From contig VFZG01000026.1 in NCBI GenBank assembly GCA_016871275.1, positions 1 through 46,757 of the forward strand: a stretch of DNA of 46,757 nucleotides. The letters run 5' to 3'. This DNA is from Acidimicrobiia bacterium (GTDB lineage: Bacteria > Acidobacteriota > Vicinamibacteria > Vicinamibacterales > UBA2999). Shown here piece by piece: positions 24,299-35,431 of this stretch; the stretch's first letter is position 1; each line of letters opens with the position of its first letter. A program made the position numbers and the translations under genes. The notes under the pieces were generated by a model that saw only the letters and a program-made list of their open reading frames with translations, had not been told where the DNA came from and did no database searches.

Positions 24299-24958
24299 CT
24301 ACGAGCTGGCTTCTTCGGGCAGGCCCAGGGCCTGCCGGACGAACATTTTCTCGGGCAGGCCGCCGAGAATCTCGATGGTCTCGTTGACGATGGTCTTGGG
24401 CACGCCGGTGACGCGGTACTTGCGGCTCAGATCCATGAACTCGGTCGCTTCGATCGCATCGGCCGTGATGTGCTCGTTTGCTGCTGCCATCTTGTGTGCG
24501 AGGACGACCGCCCTCGGACAGTGCGGTCAAGTCGGCGTCGAGAACACTTGAATGTGGGTCGGCGTGTCCACCGCCTGGATCCAGGTCATGGTTTCGGGAT
24601 CGAGATCGATCGTGCCGGTGCCGGCGACGATGATGGCTTCAACCAGGCCGACGAACTCGTAGCCGGTGGGCGCGCCGTACATCCGCATGCGCGTGTCGAC
24701 GCCGTCGCTCAGGACGACGATGGCCGGCGCCATGGTGACGTTGTACTTGGCCTTGTCGTCCGAATCGAGAACGAAGTTCTTGTTGACGACGGTGATTTTC
24801 TCGTTCAGCGACGCGATCTCGAGGAGAATCTTCTTCGCCACGTCGCCGCTGTCGGAGCCGCCAAACGTCTGCGTGAAGAGCACGAGCTGGACGGGATGAA
24901 CAAGCCCGGACAAGTGCTGCTTCAGCGTGGCTTCGTCTTGCGGCGACAGCAGTCCCAT
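24299..24958 (-). CDS. Predicted selenoprotein: two-thioredoxin-fold disulfide oxidoreductase with UPHC active site
   Basis: Read through one in-frame TGA (24529-24527), this is a 219-residue protein of the glutaredoxin-like / protein disulfide oxidoreductase type with two thioredoxin folds, similar in layout to the AhpF N-terminal module. The first fold (about 1-115) has lost its redox pair (FTQTFGGSDSGD). The second starts IQVFSTPT, where Cys-Pro-His-Cys is expected, and reads TGA-Pro-His-Cys: residue 144 is the TGA and C147 the resolving cysteine. The frame stays open for 75 more codons and contains the cis-proline loop TGVPKT and a normal fold end. A SECIS-like hairpin follows the TGA. 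Without recoding the gene would appear as two fragments (24527-24958 and 24299-24490). Alternatives are a nonsense mutation or sequencing error, but the position makes selenocysteine much likelier. Confidence 0.82.
24495..24520 (-). promoter_or_regulatory. SECIS-like hairpin downstream of the in-frame TGA
   Basis: On the coding (minus) strand, CGAGGGC (24516-24510) pairs with GUCCUCG (24505-24499), 7 bp including one G-U, closing a GGUC tetraloop (24509-24506). Below a C-C mismatch, three more pairs (UGU 24520-24518 with ACA 24497-24495) extend the stem. The apical loop starts 17 nt after the TGA, inside the 16-37 nt window usual for bacterial SECIS, and has G in its first two positions as required. 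The loop matches the GGUC loop of E. coli fdhF. The bulged U of the E. coli element is not evident. Confidence 0.65.
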
Positions 24959-24965
24959 CCGGTCA

Positions 24966-24997
24966 GGCTATCAGGCCATCGGGCGATCCGGCCATCA
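24966..24997 (-). repeat. Octamer tandem array upstream of the selenoprotein gene
   Basis: Four 8-bp units of plus-strand form GGCNATCN fill 24966-24997. They reach from 7 bp before the selenoprotein ATG into the stop codon of the upstream gene, so the array occupies the ribosome-binding region. Confidence 0.75.
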
Positions 24998-25486
24998 GAA
25001 TTTGAAGAGATCGTCGAACGCCTTCTTCGCCCCGCTGGGTTCCTTGGGGCTGGCGCCCTTGTCAGCCACGGCTGCGGTGGTTTCGCGCTCCCATGACGTG
25101 CGAATGCTGAAGTGCTGGCAACTGTTGGCGATGTCCTTGGGGGACACTCGAGCGGGCAGCTTGATGGCGCACTCGAAGCTGGCGCCGGGGTCGAAGTTCA
25201 CGCACTGGATGCACGACCGCATGTCGACCTGGCACTTGGCGCACTTGCTGAGCGACATGACCTGCGGATCGGCGATGGTGCCGCAGCGGGCGCAACGGGC
25301 GACCTGACGCGAGTTCATCATGCGCGGGTTGCGCGCGCCTTCGGATGAAATGCGCCGGGCGCCGGCCGGCGCGCCGGGCTCACGCTGGGGCCGGGTGCCG
25401 CCGCCCTCCGGCCGGGGACCGTTCGGACGGCGATCGCGGTCGTCGTCCTGGTAGCCGCGCTGGCGATACTTGCGATCGTCGCTCAT
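24995..25486 (-). CDS. Cysteine-rich zinc-ribbon protein of unknown function
   Basis: A 163-residue protein. The first 60 residues are rich in Arg, Asp, Gly and Pro and probably disordered. Then come two CxxC pairs (CARCG about 65, CAKCQ about 81) forming a probable zinc ribbon, followed by CIQCVNFDPGASFEC and NSCQHF, four more cysteines that could bind a second metal or Fe-S centre. I do not recognise a named family. The ATG at 25486 overlaps the amidohydrolase stop (ATGA). An upstream in-frame extension to 25708 reads antisense of the amidohydrolase and is rejected. It lies between the amidohydrolase and the predicted selenoprotein. Confidence 0.75.
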   Translation of the reverse strand: MSDDRKYRQRGYQDDDRDRRPNGPRPEGGGTRPQREPGAPAGARRISSEGARNPRMMNSRQVARCARCGTIADPQVMSLSKCAKCQVDMRSCIQCVNFDPGASFECAIKLPARVSPKDIANSCQHFSIRTSWERETTAAVADKGASPKEPSGAKKAFDDLFKF

Positions 25487-27323: not shown

Positions 27324-29354
27324 TTGGCCCAGCCGGATGCAGATCTGCTTCACAACCCTGTCGCGGGCCACCCACCGCTGATCCTGAGATCACCGGATTT
27401 CCACTCCATCACCGAGGCCGTTGCGGAGCCGGTCGAGCGGACGACGCCGATCGGCTGGTGGCTCTTCTTCATTCCGTCGCTCGGACTCCTCAGCCTCCTC
27501 GGCATTGCCGTCGCGTGGCTGTTTTGGGAGGGAATCGGCATCTGGGGCCTCAACCAGCCGGTCGGCTGGGCATGGGACATCACGAATTTCGTGTTCTGGG
27601 TCGGCATCGGCCACGCCGGAACGCTCATCTCGGCCATCTTGTTTCTCTTCCGCCAGACATGGCGCACCTCAATCAACCGCTCGGCCGAGGCGATGACCAT
27701 CTTCGCGGTGATGTGCGCCCTGACGTTCCCGGGGATTCATGTGGGACGCGTCTGGGTCGCCTACTGGATGTTCCCGCTACCGAACCAGATGGACATGTGG
27801 CCCAATTTCAGGAGCCCGCTTCTCTGGGACGTCTTCGCCGTCAGCATCTACGGCACCGTCTCGGTCCTGTTCTGGTACGTCGGCCTGATCCCCGACCTGG
27901 CGACGATGCGCGATCGGGCGAAGACCAGCACCCGGCAGTTCGTCTACGGGATTTTCGCGCTCGGATGGCGTGGCTCGCAGCGGCAATGGCATCACTACGA
28001 ATCCGCATACCTGATCCTTGCAGCCCTCGCGACACCCCTCGTGCTGTCGGTCCATTCGATTGTGTCGATGGATTTCGCCGTCTCGCTTCTCCCTGGATGG
28101 CATACGACGGTCTTCCCGCCCTATTTCGTCGCCGGCGCCATCTTCTCCGGGTTCGCCATGGTGCTCACGCTCATGGTGATCTGCCGCTGGGCATTCAAAC
28201 TCGAGCACATCGTCACCCTCCGGCACTTCGACTACATGGCGAAGATCATGCTGGTGACGGGGACGATCGTGGGCTACGCCTATGCCACGGAGTTCTTCAT
28301 CGCCTGGTATAGCGGGAACCCCTACGAGGTGTTCACGTTCCTGAACCGCGCGGGCGGACCGTACGCCTGGGCCTACTGGATCATGATCAGCTGCAACGTG
28401 ATCAGTCCGCAGGTCTTCTGGTTCAAGAAGGCGCGCACCAGCATCCCGATCCTCTTCGCGGTGTCGATCGTCATCAACATCGGGATGTGGTTCGAGCGGT
28501 TCGTGATCATCGTGACCTCGCTGCACCGTGACTTCCTGCCCTCCTCCTGGGGCTACTTCAGTCCCACGGTCTGGGACATCGCGTGCCTGCTTGGAAGCTT
28601 CGGGCTGTTCTTCACGATGTTCTGCCTGTTCGTGCGCTTTCTTCCGATGGTGGCCACCGCGGAAGTCAAGACGGTCCTGCCGCAGGCCAATCCGCATGGG
28701 CAGCACGGACACGCAGTCGCCGAGCGCGAGATCGCACTCCATCACGAGGTCGTCCCGGTCGCGATGGTCGAGCCAGCCCCTTCCCGGTGGCGCTTCGAGA
28801 TGCCGCTGGTCCCACGGCTGCCGAAGGGGCCGTATTTCGGAGTCCTGGCCGAGTTCACGACGCCGGCGGAGCTCTATCGCGCGTGCGAGCGCGTCCGAGA
28901 CGCCGGCTTCTCGCGATGGGACGCCCACACGCCGTTCCCCGTCCACGGCCTGAGCAAGGCGATGGGGCTCCGACGGTCGACGCTCCCCTGGATTGTGCTC
29001 GTGCTGGCGCTGACGGGGGCCGCGGCTGGGTTCCTCCTGCAGTGGTGGGTCCACACCACCGCCTATCCGCTGGTGATCAGCGGCAAGCCGTTTTTCACCT
29101 GGCCCGCCTTCATTCCGATCACCTTCGAGGTCGCGGTGCTCTTCGGCGCGCTCGGCGCCGTCTTCGGCATGTTGGGCCTGAACCGGCTGCCGATGCACCA
29201 CCATCCGCTCTTCAAGTCCAAGGTCTTCGAGCGGGCGAGCGACGACACCTTCTTCATCTCGATTGAATCGTGGGATCCACGGTTCGATCCGTCGGGCACG
29301 GCGACGTTGATGAAGTCATTGGGCGCGCGAAGCGTCGAGCTGCTGGAGTCGTGA
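27324..29354 (+). CDS. Alternative Complex III subunits ActC-ActD fused in one protein
   Basis: A 676-residue fusion. Residues 1 to about 445 are the NrfD/PsrC-like quinol-oxidising membrane subunit ActC, with about ten helices and family segments [31 protein letters not shown] and ISPQVFWF. A His-rich linker (about 450-500) joins ActD (DUF3341, about 500-676), which has the [15 protein letters not shown] motif and two transmembrane helices. ACIII oxidises menaquinol or ubiquinol and reduces cytochrome c or directly a heme-copper oxidase. The start is TTG at 27324 with GAGG at 27313-27316. actF overlaps the stop by one base. actA and actB are not upstream; the neighbour is a divergent amidohydrolase. 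Confidence 0.93.
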
Positions 29355-30559
29355 TGGCCGATCACGTTGAGCTGCGTCCCGAGCAAGCCACGATCCCGCC
29401 GGGGCACTCGTGGAACCGCCTGCCCCTCATTGCCGGTGCCCTGGCGCTGCTGGGGGCGGTGGCGTGCGCGATTCTGGCCCCGGGGAATCCGAAGCAATTC
29501 TTCTTTTCGTGGCTGGTGTCGTTCCTCTTCTTCACGAGCCTGGCCCTCGGCGCGCTGTTCTTCGTGCTGATCCAGTACGCGGCCCAGGGAGGCTGGGGGA
29601 TTGTCCTGCGCCGGATCGGGGAGACGATCTTCTCCACGATTCCTGTGATGGCGGCCTTGTTCGTCCCCCTGCTCTTTGGCCTGCACGATCTGTACGAATG
29701 GTCTCATGCCGACGCGGCGGAACACGACGCGCTGTTGGCCTGGAAGGCGCCGTATCTGAACGTGCCGTTCTTCCTGATTCGGGCGGCGCTGTTCTTCGGC
29801 ATCTGGTCCTTCATCGCCGTCGTGTATTACCGCGGCTCACGCTCCCAGGACGCGACGGGCGATCACGCGGTGTCGGCGCGCCTGCGCAAGTTCGCCGGAC
29901 CCGCGATCATCGTCCTGGCGCTGACCCAGACGTTTGCCTCGATCGACTGGATCATGTCGCTCACGCCCCACTGGTACTCGACCATGTTCGGCGTGTATTT
30001 CTTTGCCGGCTCCTGGGTGGGGTTCATCGCGCTGCTGTCTGTCGTCGTGCCGGCGATGCGCGGCAGCGGGCTGCTGGACACGGTGATCAGTGCCGAGCAC
30101 CTGCAGGACATCGGCAAGTTCCTGTTCGCATTCACCGCGTTCTGGGCCTACATCGCGTTCTCCCAGTATTTCCTGATGTGGTACGGGAACCTGCCGGAAG
30201 AAACGATCTGGTACAAAGCACGGATGGAGGGGTCCTGGTTGACGGTCTCGCTCCTGTTGCTGTTTGGACATTTCATGGCGCCGTTCTTTTACCTGATGGG
30301 CCGGAGCGTCAAGCGGAACGGCGCGACACTGGCCGTTGGCGGCGCCTGGATCCTCCTCATGCACTTCGTCGATCTGTACTGGCAAGTGATGCCGGGCCTG
30401 CATCCCGAGGGATTCGGCCCGTCGCTGCTCGATGGCGCGGCGTTCATGGCGGTCGGCGGGTCGTTCGTGGCGGCCGCGAGCTGGCTGATGCGGCGCCAGG
30501 CGCTGGTGCCGCTCGGTGACCCGAGACTCGGCGAATCGCTGGCCTTCGAGAACGTCTGA
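29354..30559 (+). CDS. actF: Alternative Complex III subunit ActF
   Basis: A 401-residue polytopic protein of the ActF family, the second NrfD-like, quinone-interacting membrane subunit of ACIII. About ten helices are visible. Family-typical segments include LLAWKAPYLNVPFFLIRAALFF, TFASIDWIMSLTPHWYSTMFG and FWAYIAFSQYFLMWYGNLPEE. ATG 29354 is chosen because it overlaps the actCD stop (TGATG). A longer frame from 29270 would only extend into the actD coding region. actE, usually between actD and actF, is missing here; an ActE-like gene is at the right window edge on the other strand. Confidence 0.93.
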   Translation: MADHVELRPEQATIPPGHSWNRLPLIAGALALLGAVACAILAPGNPKQFFFSWLVSFLFFTSLALGALFFVLIQYAAQGGWGIVLRRIGETIFSTIPVMAALFVPLLFGLHDLYEWSHADAAEHDALLAWKAPYLNVPFFLIRAALFFGIWSFIAVVYYRGSRSQDATGDHAVSARLRKFAGPAIIVLALTQTFASIDWIMSLTPHWYSTMFGVYFFAGSWVGFIALLSVVVPAMRGSGLLDTVISAEHLQDIGKFLFAFTAFWAYIAFSQYFLMWYGNLPEETIWYKARMEGSWLTVSLLLLFGHFMAPFFYLMGRSVKRNGATLAVGGAWILLMHFVDLYWQVMPGLHPEGFGPSLLDGAAFMAVGGSFVAAASWLMRRQALVPLGDPRLGESLAFENV

Positions 30560-30590
30560 GGGGTTGCGCCAGCAGGGGGCTCGGTGTAGA

Positions 30591-30610
30591 GTCGGCCCAT
30601 CCGGGCCGGC
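30591..30610 (+). terminator. Hairpin between actF and the cupredoxin gene
   Basis: GTCGGCCC (30591-30598) pairs with GGGCCGGC (30603-30610), eight pairs including one G-U, around an ATCC loop. No T-tract follows and the operon seems to continue, so it may be a processing or attenuation structure rather than a full stop. Confidence 0.35.
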
Positions 30611-30644
30611 GTGGATGAGGTTGACGATGTCCAAGGAGACGAGC

Positions 30645-31370
30645 ATGCGCGGAATTGGCAACAGGCGGTGGCTTGCAGCTGGACTGTTGGTGCTGACGTG
30701 GCCGGGCATGGCAATGGCCGCGTCGACAATCACCGGCACCATCACCTTCACCGGCAAACCGCCCGCGCTCAAGCCGCTGGCCATGGACGCCGACCCGGCG
30801 TGCGCCAAGAAGCACACCAAGCCGGTCCTGGCTGAAATGCTGGTCCTGGGCAATGGCCAGACGATGGCGAACGTCATCGTCTGGGTCTCGAAGGGCCTGC
30901 CGGCTGGGAAGAAGTTCCCCGTTCCCTCGACGCCCGTGACGCTCGATCAGAAGGGGTGCGTATACATGCCGCACGCGATGGGGATCATGGTCGGTCAGGC
31001 CTACCGCATCCTCAACTCCGACGGCATTCTCCACAACGTCCACACTCTTCCCAAGATCAACCCGTCATTCAACCGGGCGATGCCGGCCACGAGCAAAGAG
31101 GCGAGCACGACGTTCGCCAAGCCGGAGCCGATCTTCCAGATCAAGTGCGACGTCCATCCATGGATGAGTGCGTACATCGGCGTGTTCGAGCATCCCTTCT
31201 TCGCGGCGACGGGCATGGACGGGAAATTCACCATCGCCGGGCTCGATGCCGGCACCTACGAGATCACCGCGTGGCATGAGCGCCTTGGCACGCAGACCGC
31301 GTCGATCACAGTCAGCGGCAGCGATACCAAGGCCCAGGACTTCAAGTTCGCGGTTCCCGGCGCGAAGTAG
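30645..31370 (+). CDS. Exported cupredoxin-like protein
   Basis: A 241-residue protein with a signal peptide cleaved near AMA-A (residue 26). Residues 60-180 form a plastocyanin-like domain. Probable copper ligands are H130 (DGILHNVHT), C168, H171 and M174 (IKCDVHPWM), a type 1 site; the CxxHxxM spacing is also close to a CuA loop. The C-terminal 60 residues (GMDGKFTIAGLDAGTYEITAWHE) are a carboxypeptidase-regulatory-like beta sandwich. It likely carries electrons in the periplasm between ACIII and the adjacent oxidase (inference from position). ATG 30645 has an AAGGAG 6 bp upstream; ATG 30627 is an alternative start. Confidence 0.85.
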   Translation: MRGIGNRRWLAAGLLVLTWPGMAMAASTITGTITFTGKPPALKPLAMDADPACAKKHTKPVLAEMLVLGNGQTMANVIVWVSKGLPAGKKFPVPSTPVTLDQKGCVYMPHAMGIMVGQAYRILNSDGILHNVHTLPKINPSFNRAMPATSKEASTTFAKPEPIFQIKCDVHPWMSAYIGVFEHPFFAATGMDGKFTIAGLDAGTYEITAWHERLGTQTASITVSGSDTKAQDFKFAVPGAK

Positions 31371-31392
31371 AAAAATCTGGAGTAGAAATCCA

Positions 31393-33156
31393 ATGAGTCA
31401 CCCGGGAACTGTCGCCGCCGGTGCGGCGCACCGCGCGCACGAAGCTCATCACGAAGAACTCGGCTTCTGGCGCAAGTACGTCTTCTCCACCGACCACAAG
31501 GTCATCGGCATCCAGTACGCCGTCACGGGGCTGCTGTTCCTGCTCTTCGGCTTTGTGTTGATGATGCTAATGCGCTGGAACCTGGCGTATCCAGGCGTCC
31601 CACTGCCGCTGATCGGCGGGCTCTTCGGCGAGGCGCGCATGCCGGGCGGCACGATGCTGCCTGAGTTCTACAACGAGCTCGGCGCGATGCACGGCACCAT
31701 CATGGTCTTCCTCGGCGTGGTGCCCCTCGCCGTCGGCGGATTCGGCAACTTCGTCCTGCCGCTGCAGATTGGCGCGCCGGACATGGCGTTCCCGAAGATC
31801 AACATGGCCAGCTACTGGTGCCTGTTCCTCGGCGGCATCACGATGCTCGGCAGCTTTTTCGTCCCCGGCGGGGCCGCGCAATCCGGGTGGACGTCCTACA
31901 CGCCGCTCGCCGTCATCGCCGGCTCAGGCCAGACTTGGTGGCTCGTCGGCATGATCTTCCTGATCACCTCGTCGCTGCTCGGCGCGGTCAACTTCCTCAC
32001 GACCACCATCCAGTTGCGCGCCAAGGGGCTGACGTTCATGCGCTTGCCCTTCTTTGTGTGGGCCCAGTTCGTCACGTCGTTCCTGCTGCTGCTGGCCTTC
32101 CCGCCGCTCGAAGCCGCTGGTGTCATGCAGTTGATGGATCGCGTGGCCGGCACGAGCTTCTTCATGCCGAGCGGCCTCGTGGTCAGCGGCCAGGTCCTCG
32201 CCAATGCCGGCGGCGGCAACACGGTGCTGTGGCAGCACCTGTTCTGGTTCCTGGCGCATCCCGAGGTCTACGTCCTGATCCTGCCCGCCATGGGCATCGT
32301 GGCCGAGATCATCGCCAACAACACGCGGAAGCCGCTGTGGGGCTATCGCTCGATGGTGTACTCGATCGTGTTCCTCGGCTTCGTGTCGTTCATCGTGTGG
32401 GCGCACCACATGTTCATGACCGGCATGGGAACGGCGATGGCGGCGTTTTTCCAAACGACGACGATGATCATCTCGATTCCGTCGGTCGTGATTCTCACGG
32501 CGCTGGTGGTGTCGCTCTGGGGCGGATCGATACGCTTCAACACGCCGATGCTCTTTGCGATCTCGTTTCTCCCGATGTTCGGCATCGGTGGTCTGACGGG
32601 CCTGCCCCTCGGCTTGAACATCTCGGACATCCCGCTCCATGACACCTACTACGTCATTGCTCACTTCCATTACGTCGTCGCGCCGGGGACGATCTTCGCG
32701 CTGTTCGCGGGTATCTACTATTGGTATCCCAAGGCGACCGGGCGGAGAATGAACGAGACACTCGGCAAGGTCCACTGGTTTGGCTCGCTCGTGTGCATGA
32801 ACGTCGTCTTCATGCCGATGTTCCTGGTCGGGCTGGCCGGCGTCTCGCGGCGCTTGTTCGACGCCGGCTCGGCCTACGACTTCGCCCAGGGGACCATGCA
32901 TTGGAACTCCGTCTCCTCGTGGGGCGCGTGGATCATGGCCCTCTTCCAGATCCCGTTCATCTTCAACTTCTTCTGGAGCATCCGCAACGGGGAGAAGGCC
33001 GAGGACAACGTCTGGCAGGCCACGACGATCGAGTGGTCCGCGCCCTCGCCGCCGCCGCACGGCAACTTCGCGGTCGCGCCGCAGGCGCATCGCGGGCCCT
33101 ACGAGTACAGCGTGCCCGGAGCCAACAAGGACTTCACGCCCCAGTTCGAGGCCTGA
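31393..33156 (+). CDS. ctaD: Cytochrome c oxidase subunit I
   Basis: A 587-residue heme-copper oxidase catalytic subunit with 12 or more helices. Heme a ligands are H100 and H426, the heme a3 ligand H424 (HDTYYVIAHFHYV), and CuB ligands H289, H338 and H339. H289 lies in HPEVY with the cross-link tyrosine Y293 and the D-channel glutamate E291, which indicates the A1-like family. It reduces oxygen to water and pumps protons. ATG 31393 is chosen; an open frame upstream overlaps the cupredoxin gene and is not coding. The C-terminal 50 residues are a Pro/His-rich soluble tail. Confidence 0.96.
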   Translation: MSHPGTVAAGAAHRAHEAHHEELGFWRKYVFSTDHKVIGIQYAVTGLLFLLFGFVLMMLMRWNLAYPGVPLPLIGGLFGEARMPGGTMLPEFYNELGAMHGTIMVFLGVVPLAVGGFGNFVLPLQIGAPDMAFPKINMASYWCLFLGGITMLGSFFVPGGAAQSGWTSYTPLAVIAGSGQTWWLVGMIFLITSSLLGAVNFLTTTIQLRAKGLTFMRLPFFVWAQFVTSFLLLLAFPPLEAAGVMQLMDRVAGTSFFMPSGLVVSGQVLANAGGGNTVLWQHLFWFLAHPEVYVLILPAMGIVAEIIANNTRKPLWGYRSMVYSIVFLGFVSFIVWAHHMFMTGMGTAMAAFFQTTTMIISIPSVVILTALVVSLWGGSIRFNTPMLFAISFLPMFGIGGLTGLPLGLNISDIPLHDTYYVIAHFHYVVAPGTIFALFAGIYYWYPKATGRRMNETLGKVHWFGSLVCMNVVFMPMFLVGLAGVSRRLFDAGSAYDFAQGTMHWNSVSSWGAWIMALFQIPFIFNFFWSIRNGEKAEDNVWQATTIEWSAPSPPPHGNFAVAPQAHRGPYEYSVPGANKDFTPQFEA

Positions 33157-33162
33157 TACGAG

Positions 33163-33753
33163 ATGGATATTCCCTACACCGTCGAGGTACGGCGCGACAC
33201 TGGTCTGAACAACGGCAAGATCGGTATCTGGCTCTTCCTGGCCTCGGAAGTCATGTTGTTCGGGGCGCTGTTTGCGAGCTACATCCTGATTCGCACCGGG
33301 TCACCGAGCTGGCCGCGCGGCGACACCGTTCTCGACTACCGGCTCGCCACGTTCAACACGATCGTCCTGATCGCGTCCTCGGTGACGATGGTGATGGCGT
33401 GGGCGTCGCTGATGCGCCGCCGCTTCGGGACCTTCCGGATCTACATGGCCGCGACGGTCCTGCTCGGGGGCGTCTTCCTGGTGGTCAAGTACTTCGAATA
33501 CAGCCATCACCTGCACCTCGGGGAGTATCCGAGCCACAGCAACTTCTTTGCGATCTACTACACGCTGACCGGCCTGCACATGCTCCATGTGTTGGGCGGC
33601 ATGGTGGTGAACGCCTATTTCTGGGGCCCCGGCGCAAAGCTCTGGAACACGAATCCGGTCTGGTTCACCAACCGGGTCGAGCACTCGGGTCTCTTCTGGC
33701 ACTTCGTCGACCTGGTCTGGATCTTCCTCTTCCCGACGCTGTATCTTCTCTAA
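33163..33753 (+). CDS. ctaE: Cytochrome c oxidase subunit III
   Basis: A 196-residue five-helix form of subunit III, lacking the first two helices of the mitochondrial type. Conserved segments are KIGIWLFLASEVMLFGALFASYI, FTLTG-like YYTLTGLHMLHVLGGM and HSGLFWHFVDLVWIFLFPTLYL, the last with the family's EHSGLFWHFVDLVW signature. It stabilises subunit I and its proton uptake. It starts 6 bp after ctaD. Confidence 0.95.
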   Translation: MDIPYTVEVRRDTGLNNGKIGIWLFLASEVMLFGALFASYILIRTGSPSWPRGDTVLDYRLATFNTIVLIASSVTMVMAWASLMRRRFGTFRIYMAATVLLGGVFLVVKYFEYSHHLHLGEYPSHSNFFAIYYTLTGLHMLHVLGGMVVNAYFWGPGAKLWNTNPVWFTNRVEHSGLFWHFVDLVWIFLFPTLYLL

Positions 33754-33763
33754 GGCGGCATTG

Positions 33764-34141
33764 ATGAGCGACCACCTAGCGACGACCGACCACGACGATC
33801 ACGCCGGTCACGATCCTGCCGACATCGACCGGCACGTCAGGGTCTACATCATGGTGTTCGTCGCGCTCATGGTGCTGACCGTCATCACCGTGGCGGTCTC
33901 GCGGCTCCACCTGTCCGTGCCGGCTGCCGTCAGCGTGGCGCTACTGGTCGCGACCGTCAAGGGAGGGCTCGTGGCGTGCTACTTCATGCACCTGATCTCT
34001 GAGAAGAAGCTGATTCTCGCGGTCCTCGCCCTCACCGCTGCCTTCTTCGTCGTGCTGCTGGCCCTGCCGTCGCTCACCCACAGCAACGGGTTCTGGATAC
34101 CCCAAGCCGAGCCGGCCCATTCGGACGACGCGCACAAATGA
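33764..34141 (+). CDS. Cytochrome c oxidase subunit IV (prokaryotic, COX4-like)
   Basis: A 125-residue protein with a His/Asp-rich N-terminus and three transmembrane helices. The segment VATVKGGLVACYFMHLISEKK matches the small COX4_pro subunit of A-type oxidases. Its role is structural. ATG 33764 follows an AAGG; a TTG one codon earlier is an unlikely start. It overlaps the next gene (ATGA). Confidence 0.85.
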   Translation: MSDHLATTDHDDHAGHDPADIDRHVRVYIMVFVALMVLTVITVAVSRLHLSVPAAVSVALLVATVKGGLVACYFMHLISEKKLILAVLALTAAFFVVLLALPSLTHSNGFWIPQAEPAHSDDAHK

Positions 34142-34338
34142 ATCTCAGGTTTATCCACGCGGGGCTGATCCTTTGTTCCGCCGCTCTCGCGGTGCTGGTG
34201 GGTCTCTGGAGCCTTGGCGTGGCCGGGCTCGGGACCGGGAGCGCAAGCCTCCCCGCGGGCATCGCGTCGTTCGCCGTGGCGATTGGCCTGGTCGTCTACG
34301 ACTCGTGGTTCCTGCGCAAGACGAGGACGCTGCGATGA
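34138..34338 (+). CDS. Small two-helix membrane protein in the oxidase operon
   Basis: A 66-residue protein with two hydrophobic stretches (about 8-27 and 39-55) and a basic C-terminus (RKTRTLR). No known family is recognised. Its start overlaps the subunit IV stop (ATGA) and its stop overlaps the next start (ATGA), so it is tightly coupled in the oxidase operon and could be an accessory subunit or assembly factor. Confidence 0.7.
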   Translation: MNLRFIHAGLILCSAALAVLVGLWSLGVAGLGTGSASLPAGIASFAVAIGLVVYDSWFLRKTRTLR

Positions 34339-34637
34339 TCCGCCTGCGCAGCTTCGCAGCTTCGGCGGGACAGGTCCGAACGATCACAATGGCGGTCTTC
34401 CTCTTGATCTTCAGCAGCTCGGAGGCTTTCGCCTGCCCGGTATGCTTCGGGGCGGAAGAGACCTCGATGATTGATGCGTCGAGGCTCGGTATTCTGGCGC
34501 TGCTGATCGTCACTTTTGCGGTGCAAGGCGCGTTTGTCGGCTTCTTCCTCTATCTCCGCAAACGCGCGAAGCTCATGGCCGATATCGATCTCGACAACGA
34601 ATGGTCGGAACTCCAGGGAGGAGCAACGAGAACATGA
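34335..34637 (+). CDS. Small membrane protein with CPVC motif in the oxidase operon
   Basis: A 100-residue protein. After a signal-like hydrophobic segment (about 16-33, ending SSSEAFA) comes CPVCFGAEETSM, then a transmembrane helix (about 53-76) and a charged cytoplasmic tail. If the N-terminal segment is cleaved, the CPVC pair faces the periplasm right at the mature start. It could bind copper or heme, or act as a thiol pair, which fits its place directly before the CuA subunit gene. This role is inferred; no family is recognised. Overlaps both neighbours by 4 bp. Confidence 0.72.
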   Translation: MIRLRSFAASAGQVRTITMAVFLLIFSSSEAFACPVCFGAEETSMIDASRLGILALLIVTFAVQGAFVGFFLYLRKRAKLMADIDLDNEWSELQGGATRT

Positions 34638-35431
34638 CCGAATGGCTCGGACTGCCGCCGCTGGCGGCCGCCCACGGTGGACAGATCGACAGCCTGATTG
34701 GCTGGATCCACGTGTTCATGTTCATCCTGTTCATTGGCTGGGGCGGATTCTTCCTTTACTGCCTGGTGCGGTTCCGCAAATCGCGAAACCCGGTCGCCGA
34801 CTACGTGGGCGTCACGTCGCCGGCGTCGAAGTATTCCGAGATTGCCGTGGCCGTGATCGAAGGCGTTCTGCTGGTCGGCTTCGCGATTCCGTTATGGGCG
34901 GCGAGGGTCGAGGGCATGCCCTCAGCCAGTGAAGCGCTCACCGTTCAGGTCACCGCCGAGCAGTTCGCCTGGAACGTCCACTATCCAGGCCCCGACGGAG
35001 TGTTCGGCCGCACCGACATCAAGCTGCTCGATCTCCAGACCAACCCGCTCGGACTCGATCGCGACGATCCGGCCGCGAAGGACGACGTCACGACGCTCAA
35101 TCAGCTGTATCTGCCGGTGAACCGGCCGGTGATTGTGAGGCTCAGAAGCAAGGACGTGATCCACAGCTTTGGCGTGCCCGAGTTCCGCGTCAAGCAGGAC
35201 GCGATTCCAGGTCTCACCATCCCGATCCATTTCATCCCCAACGTCACGACCGCGGAGATGCGAACGCGGCTGGGCAAGCCTGAGTTCCAGTACGAGATTG
35301 CCTGCGCGCAGCTCTGCGGCCTGGGCCATGCCCGGATGCGGGGATTCGTCACCGTCCAGACCGCCGAGGAGTTCCAGAAGTGGTTGGAGGAACAAATCGC
35401 GGAGCAGAGCGCGCCGGATCCCTTCCGGTAG
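34634..35431 (+). CDS. ctaC: Cytochrome c oxidase subunit II (CuA)
   Basis: A 265-residue subunit with two N-terminal helices (about 21-45 and 69-91) and a periplasmic cupredoxin domain. The CuA ligands are complete: H177 (VIHSFGVPEF), C224, C228, H232 and M235 (CAQLCGLGHARM). It accepts electrons from the periplasmic donor and passes them to heme a. No cytochrome c domain is fused. ATG 34634 overlaps the previous stop (ATGA). Subunit II is last in this operon, the reverse of the more common order in which it comes first. Confidence 0.96.
   Translation: MTEWLGLPPLAAAHGGQIDSLIGWIHVFMFILFIGWGGFFLYCLVRFRKSRNPVADYVGVTSPASKYSEIAVAVIEGVLLVGFAIPLWAARVEGMPSASEALTVQVTAEQFAWNVHYPGPDGVFGRTDIKLLDLQTNPLGLDRDDPAAKDDVTTLNQLYLPVNRPVIVRLRSKDVIHSFGVPEFRVKQDAIPGLTIPIHFIPNVTTAEMRTRLGKPEFQYEIACAQLCGLGHARMRGFVTVQTAEEFQKWLEEQIAEQSAPDPFR

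Follow-up and report, generated by a model that had tools for sequence, protein, structure and literature searches.

The window, a 46,757-nt stretch of Acidobacteriota DNA (contig VFZG01000026.1 of assembly GCA_016871275.1), very probably carries at positions 24958–24299 a single gene for a selenium-containing protein disulfide oxidoreductase (PDO), in which an internal UGA is read as Sec144 by way of a SECIS-type hairpin. On the minus strand, the frame that runs from the ATG at 24958 to the TAG at 24301–24299 contains one internal stop, the TGA at 24529–24527, and the surrounding codons translate as T-P-T-[TGA]-P-H-C-P. If the TGA is read as selenocysteine (Sec), the product is a protein of 219 residues with a UPHC motif; the fourth residue of the motif, Cys147, is its sole cysteine, and none precedes the TGA. 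The initial annotation of this DNA had described two minus-strand fragments in one frame, separated by a single TGA, and had proposed a selenoprotein. The frame is indeed otherwise open, and the selenoprotein interpretation as a whole is supported, with none of the refutation tests that were run speaking against it. ORF calling breaks the gene into two ORFs, one of 143 and one of 63 amino acids, the second starting from the ATG at 24490. A plain ORF caller thus halves the enzyme, and misannotation as fragments is easy.

Table 1. Features of the PDO locus, in window coordinates.
Feature	Position	Strand	Evidence or remark
PDO selenoprotein gene, 219 aa with predicted Sec144, ATG to TAG	24299..24958	-	TIGR02187, 224.3 bits against a cut-off of 185; mean model pLDDT 93.9
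In-frame TGA, predicted to encode selenocysteine (Sec144 in the UPHC motif)	24527..24529	-	column is TGA in 45/79 and TGC/TGT in 34/79 family genes
N-terminal thioredoxin domain without CxxC (GGSDSG) and start of C-terminal domain	24530..24958	-	
Rest of C-terminal thioredoxin domain, Cys147, V-P187 loop; purifying selection	24302..24526	-	model and pN
Predicted bacterial SECIS hairpin	24495..24520	-	pair counts, covariation, 36-nt fold; outer pairs weak
Hairpin core stem, tip GCGGUCGU and GGUC loop (loop in local fold)	stem 24516-24512 with 24503-24499; tip 24511-24504; loop 24509-24506	-	
163-aa protein with 8 invariant cysteines	24995..25486	-	36 nt before PDO start

The protein matches NCBIfam TIGR02187 (PDO_seleno_TRX) above the curated cut-off over profile positions 3–206 of 209, and Pfam Thioredoxin_3 matches residues 135–211. 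The nearest sequences with solved structures are the PDOs of Pyrococcus and Aquifex. In the AlphaFold2 model (pTM 0.90; built from 28 window and locus proteins, with Cys substituted for Sec), two thioredoxin folds are arranged in tandem, and the best-ranked PDB matches are 2ywm, 2ayt, 1a8l and 1j08 (TM 0.88–0.92, query-normalised), followed by the N-terminal domains of AhpF. The AhpF profile itself (TIGR03140) reaches 70.1 bits against a cut-off of 502.9 and is matched over positions 8–179 of 515, the flavin reductase part being absent; TIGR03143 is also far under its cut-off, and such AhpF-type models match the window's protein through the thioredoxin-fold part alone. Thioredoxins carry their nucleophile just before a helix of the kind formed by residues 147–160, and in the model Sec144 sits directly before this helix. 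The V-P187 loop is presumably of the cis-Pro type. The sequence downstream of the TGA had been taken for the second half of a thioredoxin fold; its thioredoxin nature holds, with the refinement that the second domain begins before the TGA.

The in-frame TGA recurs in related genes. The window's protein has a match in 29 of 60 genomes, its own included, and in the Sec column 24 of these (25 genes) have TGA and four (G015, G027, G033 and G042) have Cys, while a fragment in G056 misses the site. In a search of 395 genomes of the phylum, TIGR02187 was over its cut-off in 73; the 74 matches comprise 33 with one TGA and 41 that are stop-free, and in all 33 the TGA falls at the Sec column. Altogether, 79 family genes were read at the site (45 TGA, 18 TGC and 16 TGT), an uneven set in which every TGA match over the cut-off was taken along with 31 of the 41 stop-free (Cys) ones. 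Its 45 TGA and 34 Cys genes are made up of the phylum matches, three TGA genes below the cut-off and extras from the 60-genome search. The set excludes the fragment from G056, which lacks the motif, along with one further stop-free match in G037 and a weak one in G033; from the phylum search, ten stop-free matches over the cut-off and almost every match below it are also absent. One gene of G033 (L042) was counted at the Sec site and excluded from the tree and from the N-terminal counts. The motif search required a stop or Cys at the site, and 50 of the 50 loci given satisfied this requirement. Sequencing error cannot account for a TGA that recurs in the same column of 45 genes from many genomes. 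The TGC and TGT codons of the 34 Cys homologues bear out the earlier proposal that the TGA takes the place of the cysteine of a CPHC motif. Homologues neither end nor start at this point, the Cys forms continuing as one frame. A record titled “Cyanobacteria bacterium” (L009/L016) looks mislabelled, as its contig agrees in length and in the position of the gene with a contig from a genome of the window's genus.

The N-terminal site of the window's protein reads GGSDSG, with no Cys, and the protein thus lacks the two CxxC motifs of a classical PDO. This absence, pointed out from the start, extends to the window's family, in which none of the 18 genes judged (16 Sec and 2 Cys) has the motif, and to another cluster within the class, in which none of five (4 Sec and 1 Cys) has it; the N-terminal CxxC is kept in the other 55 of 78 genes, reading CEWC in L096. 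Sec144 and Cys147 are the only predicted redox pair in the window's enzyme. The claim that Sec is the protein's sole nucleophile needs a slight refinement, Cys147 being retained as the resolving residue. The best-surviving alternative, though an improbable one, is a dual output in which a truncated single-domain product is made at low selenium and the full enzyme with selenium, both being useful. The truncated form would retain the N-terminal domain, and Sec insertion is known to be inefficient in other bacteria, but without a CxxC in any of the 18 judged family genes such a form would have no redox site, and no hint of another function for it was seen here.

Profile searches of the window's genome (G000; 124 contigs, completeness listed as 100%) detected selA at 535 bits (cut-off 268), selB at 319 bits (cut-off 242) and selD at 362 bits (cut-off 125), so that the check for Sec machinery suggested by the initial annotation came out in favor of the selenoprotein. 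The best tRNA-Sec match scored 63.8 bits against a gathering score of 47, and ARAGORN reported tRNA-SeC with anticodon TCA. The selC call rests on the ARAGORN result because the RNA model is unspecific, with matches in all 14 Sec-free control genomes (over the cut-off in five) and over the cut-off in 53 of the 60 genomes, at scores that ordinary tRNAs reach too. In the controls, SelA was over its cut-off in 1 of 14 genomes, SelB in 2 of 14 and SelD in 2 of 14. The selD of G000 (L113, G000:C76:10121-11047) is itself a predicted selenoprotein gene, with its own in-frame TGA followed by a hairpin with a GGTC tip. Insertion of some other amino acid at the PDO's TGA, whether through a suppressor or an altered genetic code, is very improbable: the genome has selenocysteine machinery, homologues align Cys at the column, and the adjoining 8-cysteine gene terminates at TGA. 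The one point in its favor is that the context is UGA-C in 45 of 45 TGA genes; UGAC is a leaky stop context, and the C in most cases simply begins a conserved proline codon.

The presence of selA is associated with TGA at the Sec column. It is over the cut-off in 24 of 24 genomes with a TGA-type PDO vs. 20 of 36 others (Fisher p = 5.7e-5), and among the 45 genomes at least 90% complete in 19 of 19 vs. 18 of 26 (p = 0.014), with kinship among genomes making these and all other p values given here optimistic. In G015 and G027, which belong to the window's family and have Cys, no selA match was found and neither selB nor selD was over the cut-off, the genomes being 83% and 77% complete, respectively; the tRNA-Sec model marginally exceeds its cut-off in both, at 50.4 and 48.4 bits. 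The Cys genome G042 likewise has no selA over the cut-off. An exception to the link is G033, which pairs a Cys-type PDO with a selA over the cut-off. In the G033 gene (L042/L117), the C-terminal part alone is readable, the upstream half being absent or out of frame.

Downstream of the TGA lies a predicted hairpin, which was examined in 25 TGA genes (21 distinct) in a gap-free alignment starting from the TGA. Offsets 14 and 29, which are synonymous third bases of Pro148 and Leu153, are G-C in 15 genes, C-G in nine and G-G in one, such that 24 of 25 pair (Fisher p = 4.9e-6). Over the seven-pair stem, 83.7% of cells pair vs. 74.2% when shuffled, and the covariation score of 0.244 (0.106 when shuffled) was as high in none of 500 shuffles. 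Sliding the partner by 1–3 columns gave 0.024–0.139, with all six slid versions lower. Three pairs are altered on both sides, a count attained by 52 of 500 shuffles, and nine of 14 doubly changed cells fall in the 14/29 pair. The tip reads GCGGTC in 23 of the 25 genes, and the same bases encode a conserved Ala-Val.

Comparison of the 45 Sec with the 34 Cys genes separates the informative pairs from the rest. Pair 14/29 forms in 39 Sec vs. 14 Cys genes (p = 2.8e-5), pair 16/27 in 33 vs. 8, and pair 17/26 in 40 vs. 18. No Sec/Cys difference is seen for pairs 13/30 (45/45 and 33/34) and 15/28 (24/45 and 22/34). The outer pairs 9/34 and 10/33 were set aside as evidence, being present in every one of the 34 Cys genes; fewer of the Sec genes have them. 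Four or more of the five core pairs are present in 33 of 45 Sec genes vs. 4 of 34 Cys genes; the remaining 12 Sec genes form two or three, and some of these may fold otherwise. Two lengths of the window's sequence were folded. The 50 nt from the TGA give a different structure, no stabler than shuffles (z = -0.38), in which the hairpin does not appear; 36 nt give the hairpin with its GGUC loop at -13.4 kcal/mol. Because the 50-nt single-sequence fold does not favor the hairpin, the case for it rests on covariation. Synonymous change points to the same segment: codons 145–158 show synonymous differences of 0.044 within the genus, vs. 0.346 before and 0.375 after them, and stretches starting from codons 143–145 are the lowest of 202. 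Across the window's family (16 Sec genes), the values are 0.262 for codons 145–158 vs. 0.391 and 0.403, and this stretch ranks third. The covarying SECIS-type hairpin thus adds support for the predicted Sec reading of the TGA.

Selection on the protein continues beyond the TGA. In 21 within-genus pairs, mean pN is 0.062 after the TGA vs. 0.103 before it (mean pS 0.39 and 0.45, respectively). This is the opposite of a decaying tail and agrees with the earlier remark that the downstream frame is intact. It is hardly credible that a nonsense mutation in an ordinary Cys gene left a decaying pseudogene here. Cys homologues are common in the set of 79, and the product is known from sequence alone, but the TGA is shared by 45 genes, the window's gene has no other internal stop, amino-acid change falls rather than rises after the TGA, and the hairpin covaries at third positions. 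Just as hard to credit are two separate genes, one for the 143-aa N-terminal piece and another for a 63-aa product initiated from the ATG at 24490: both appear as ORFs, but the second would start at residue 157, inside helix 147–160 and missing the active site, no ribosome site is seen in the 15 nt before its ATG, and the Cys homologues are single continuous frames.

In a quickly built, unrooted tree of 78 genes, the Sec/Cys distribution needs nine changes, seven of which are forced by well-supported branches. One genus of the phylum holds a Sec form (G326) beside Cys forms in G392 and G321 (L086, L070 and L075), a recent Sec/Cys exchange. Both losses of the N-terminal CxxC fall in Sec-rich parts of the tree, a placement suggesting that the second site became dispensable through Sec. 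Tentatively, and at rather less than an even chance, the window's enzyme may represent a single-site selenium PDO in which the CxxC decayed after Sec was gained, probably twice independently (in the window's family and in the second cluster), converting a two-site disulfide isomerase/reductase to a dedicated selenol reductase.

We infer the Sec insertion, catalytic direction, reductant and substrate of the window's PDO as follows. The hairpin, located 7–32 nt beyond the UGA, would bind SelB with Sec-tRNA-Sec, and the UGA would be decoded as Sec144 rather than as a stop. Sec144 would then attack a substrate disulfide, Cys147 would resolve the mixed selenenyl-sulfide, and thioredoxin reductase would probably re-reduce the Sec144/Cys147 site. 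With the N-terminal CxxC lacking and a single active site left, the enzyme is most likely a reductase or thiol-transferase and not an isomerase, by analogy with the Sulfolobus PDO, in which thiol-transferase activity resides mainly at the C-terminal site and isomerase activity needs both (PMC7465337). Archaeal PDOs draw electrons from thioredoxin reductase (PMC7278568); in G000, a single thioredoxin reductase (399 bits) is over the cut-off, alongside a single PDO.

The gene directly upstream, perhaps cotranscribed with the PDO gene, encodes an 8-cysteine protein with three CxxC pairs and a conserved C-terminal FDxLF. It matches no Pfam family at E 0.01, and its structure prediction is poor (pLDDT 54.3). 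The gene adjoins the PDO in 26 of 79 loci and in 18 of 19 in the window's family (the exception being G033), as counted with the window's 8-cysteine protein as the only query and with little upstream sequence in some loci. In G017, two Sec-PDO genes (L029 and L044) each have their own 8-cysteine gene directly upstream. The protein occurs in 51 of 60 genomes, the window's included, many of them without a PDO match, and lies apart from the PDO in G038 and G050. A role as dedicated partner or substrate of the PDO is unsupported, given this spread, and it is best described as a conserved protein without assigned function. Window positions 27324–35431, beside the PDO region, contain alternative complex III genes (ActD and NrfD-type domains) and, as judged from ORF reading, a cytochrome oxidase cluster; Act-like ORFs, read in the same way, adjoin the PDO in L012 too.

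The window's protein is a further member of an already catalogued selenoprotein family and not a new kind. Table 1 of PMC13188914 lists a “Homolog of AhpF N-terminal domain (Grx-like domain protein)”, TIGR02187, with UxxC, as a confidently predicted selenoprotein family (example ABB15282.1); the same family is also listed in PMC9312934, and PMC1794560 places family selenoproteins in Carboxydothermus hydrogenoformans and Symbiobacterium thermophilum. That TIGR02187 was catalogued in this way (PMC13188914, Table 1; PMC1794560) had been overlooked by the initial annotation. Table 2 of PMC1794560 gives four selenoproteins of three families in Acidobacteria. In the open-licence literature searched, no report was found of this clade or of a one-site form without the N-terminal CxxC. 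The C. hydrogenoformans and S. thermophilum proteins share with the window's the family model, the UxxC motif and bacterial Sec decoding, a likeness drawn from published descriptions; they differ in organism, and the window's family is without the N-terminal CxxC.

Archaeal and Aquifex PDOs (1a8l, 1j08, 2ayt and 2ywm) have full-length tandem thioredoxin folds, as does the window's protein (TM 0.88–0.92, 30–33% identity), which in contrast has Sec for the Cys of the C-terminal site and no N-terminal CxxC. PDOs are described in PMC7465337 as found only in thermophiles; the window's bacterium appears to carry no mark of thermophily here. The N-terminal domain of AhpF (1zyn and 5h29) has the tandem fold in common with the window's protein (TM 0.82–0.88), which is without the flavin reductase part. 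Sec-containing thioredoxins and glutaredoxins are single-domain proteins, unlike the two-fold protein of the window. The UxxC motif is common to both, as listed in PMC13188914 (Table 1). To these known systems, the window adds a well-supported Sec-PDO clade with close Cys relatives, in which Cys/Sec exchange and loss of the second site can be tested together.
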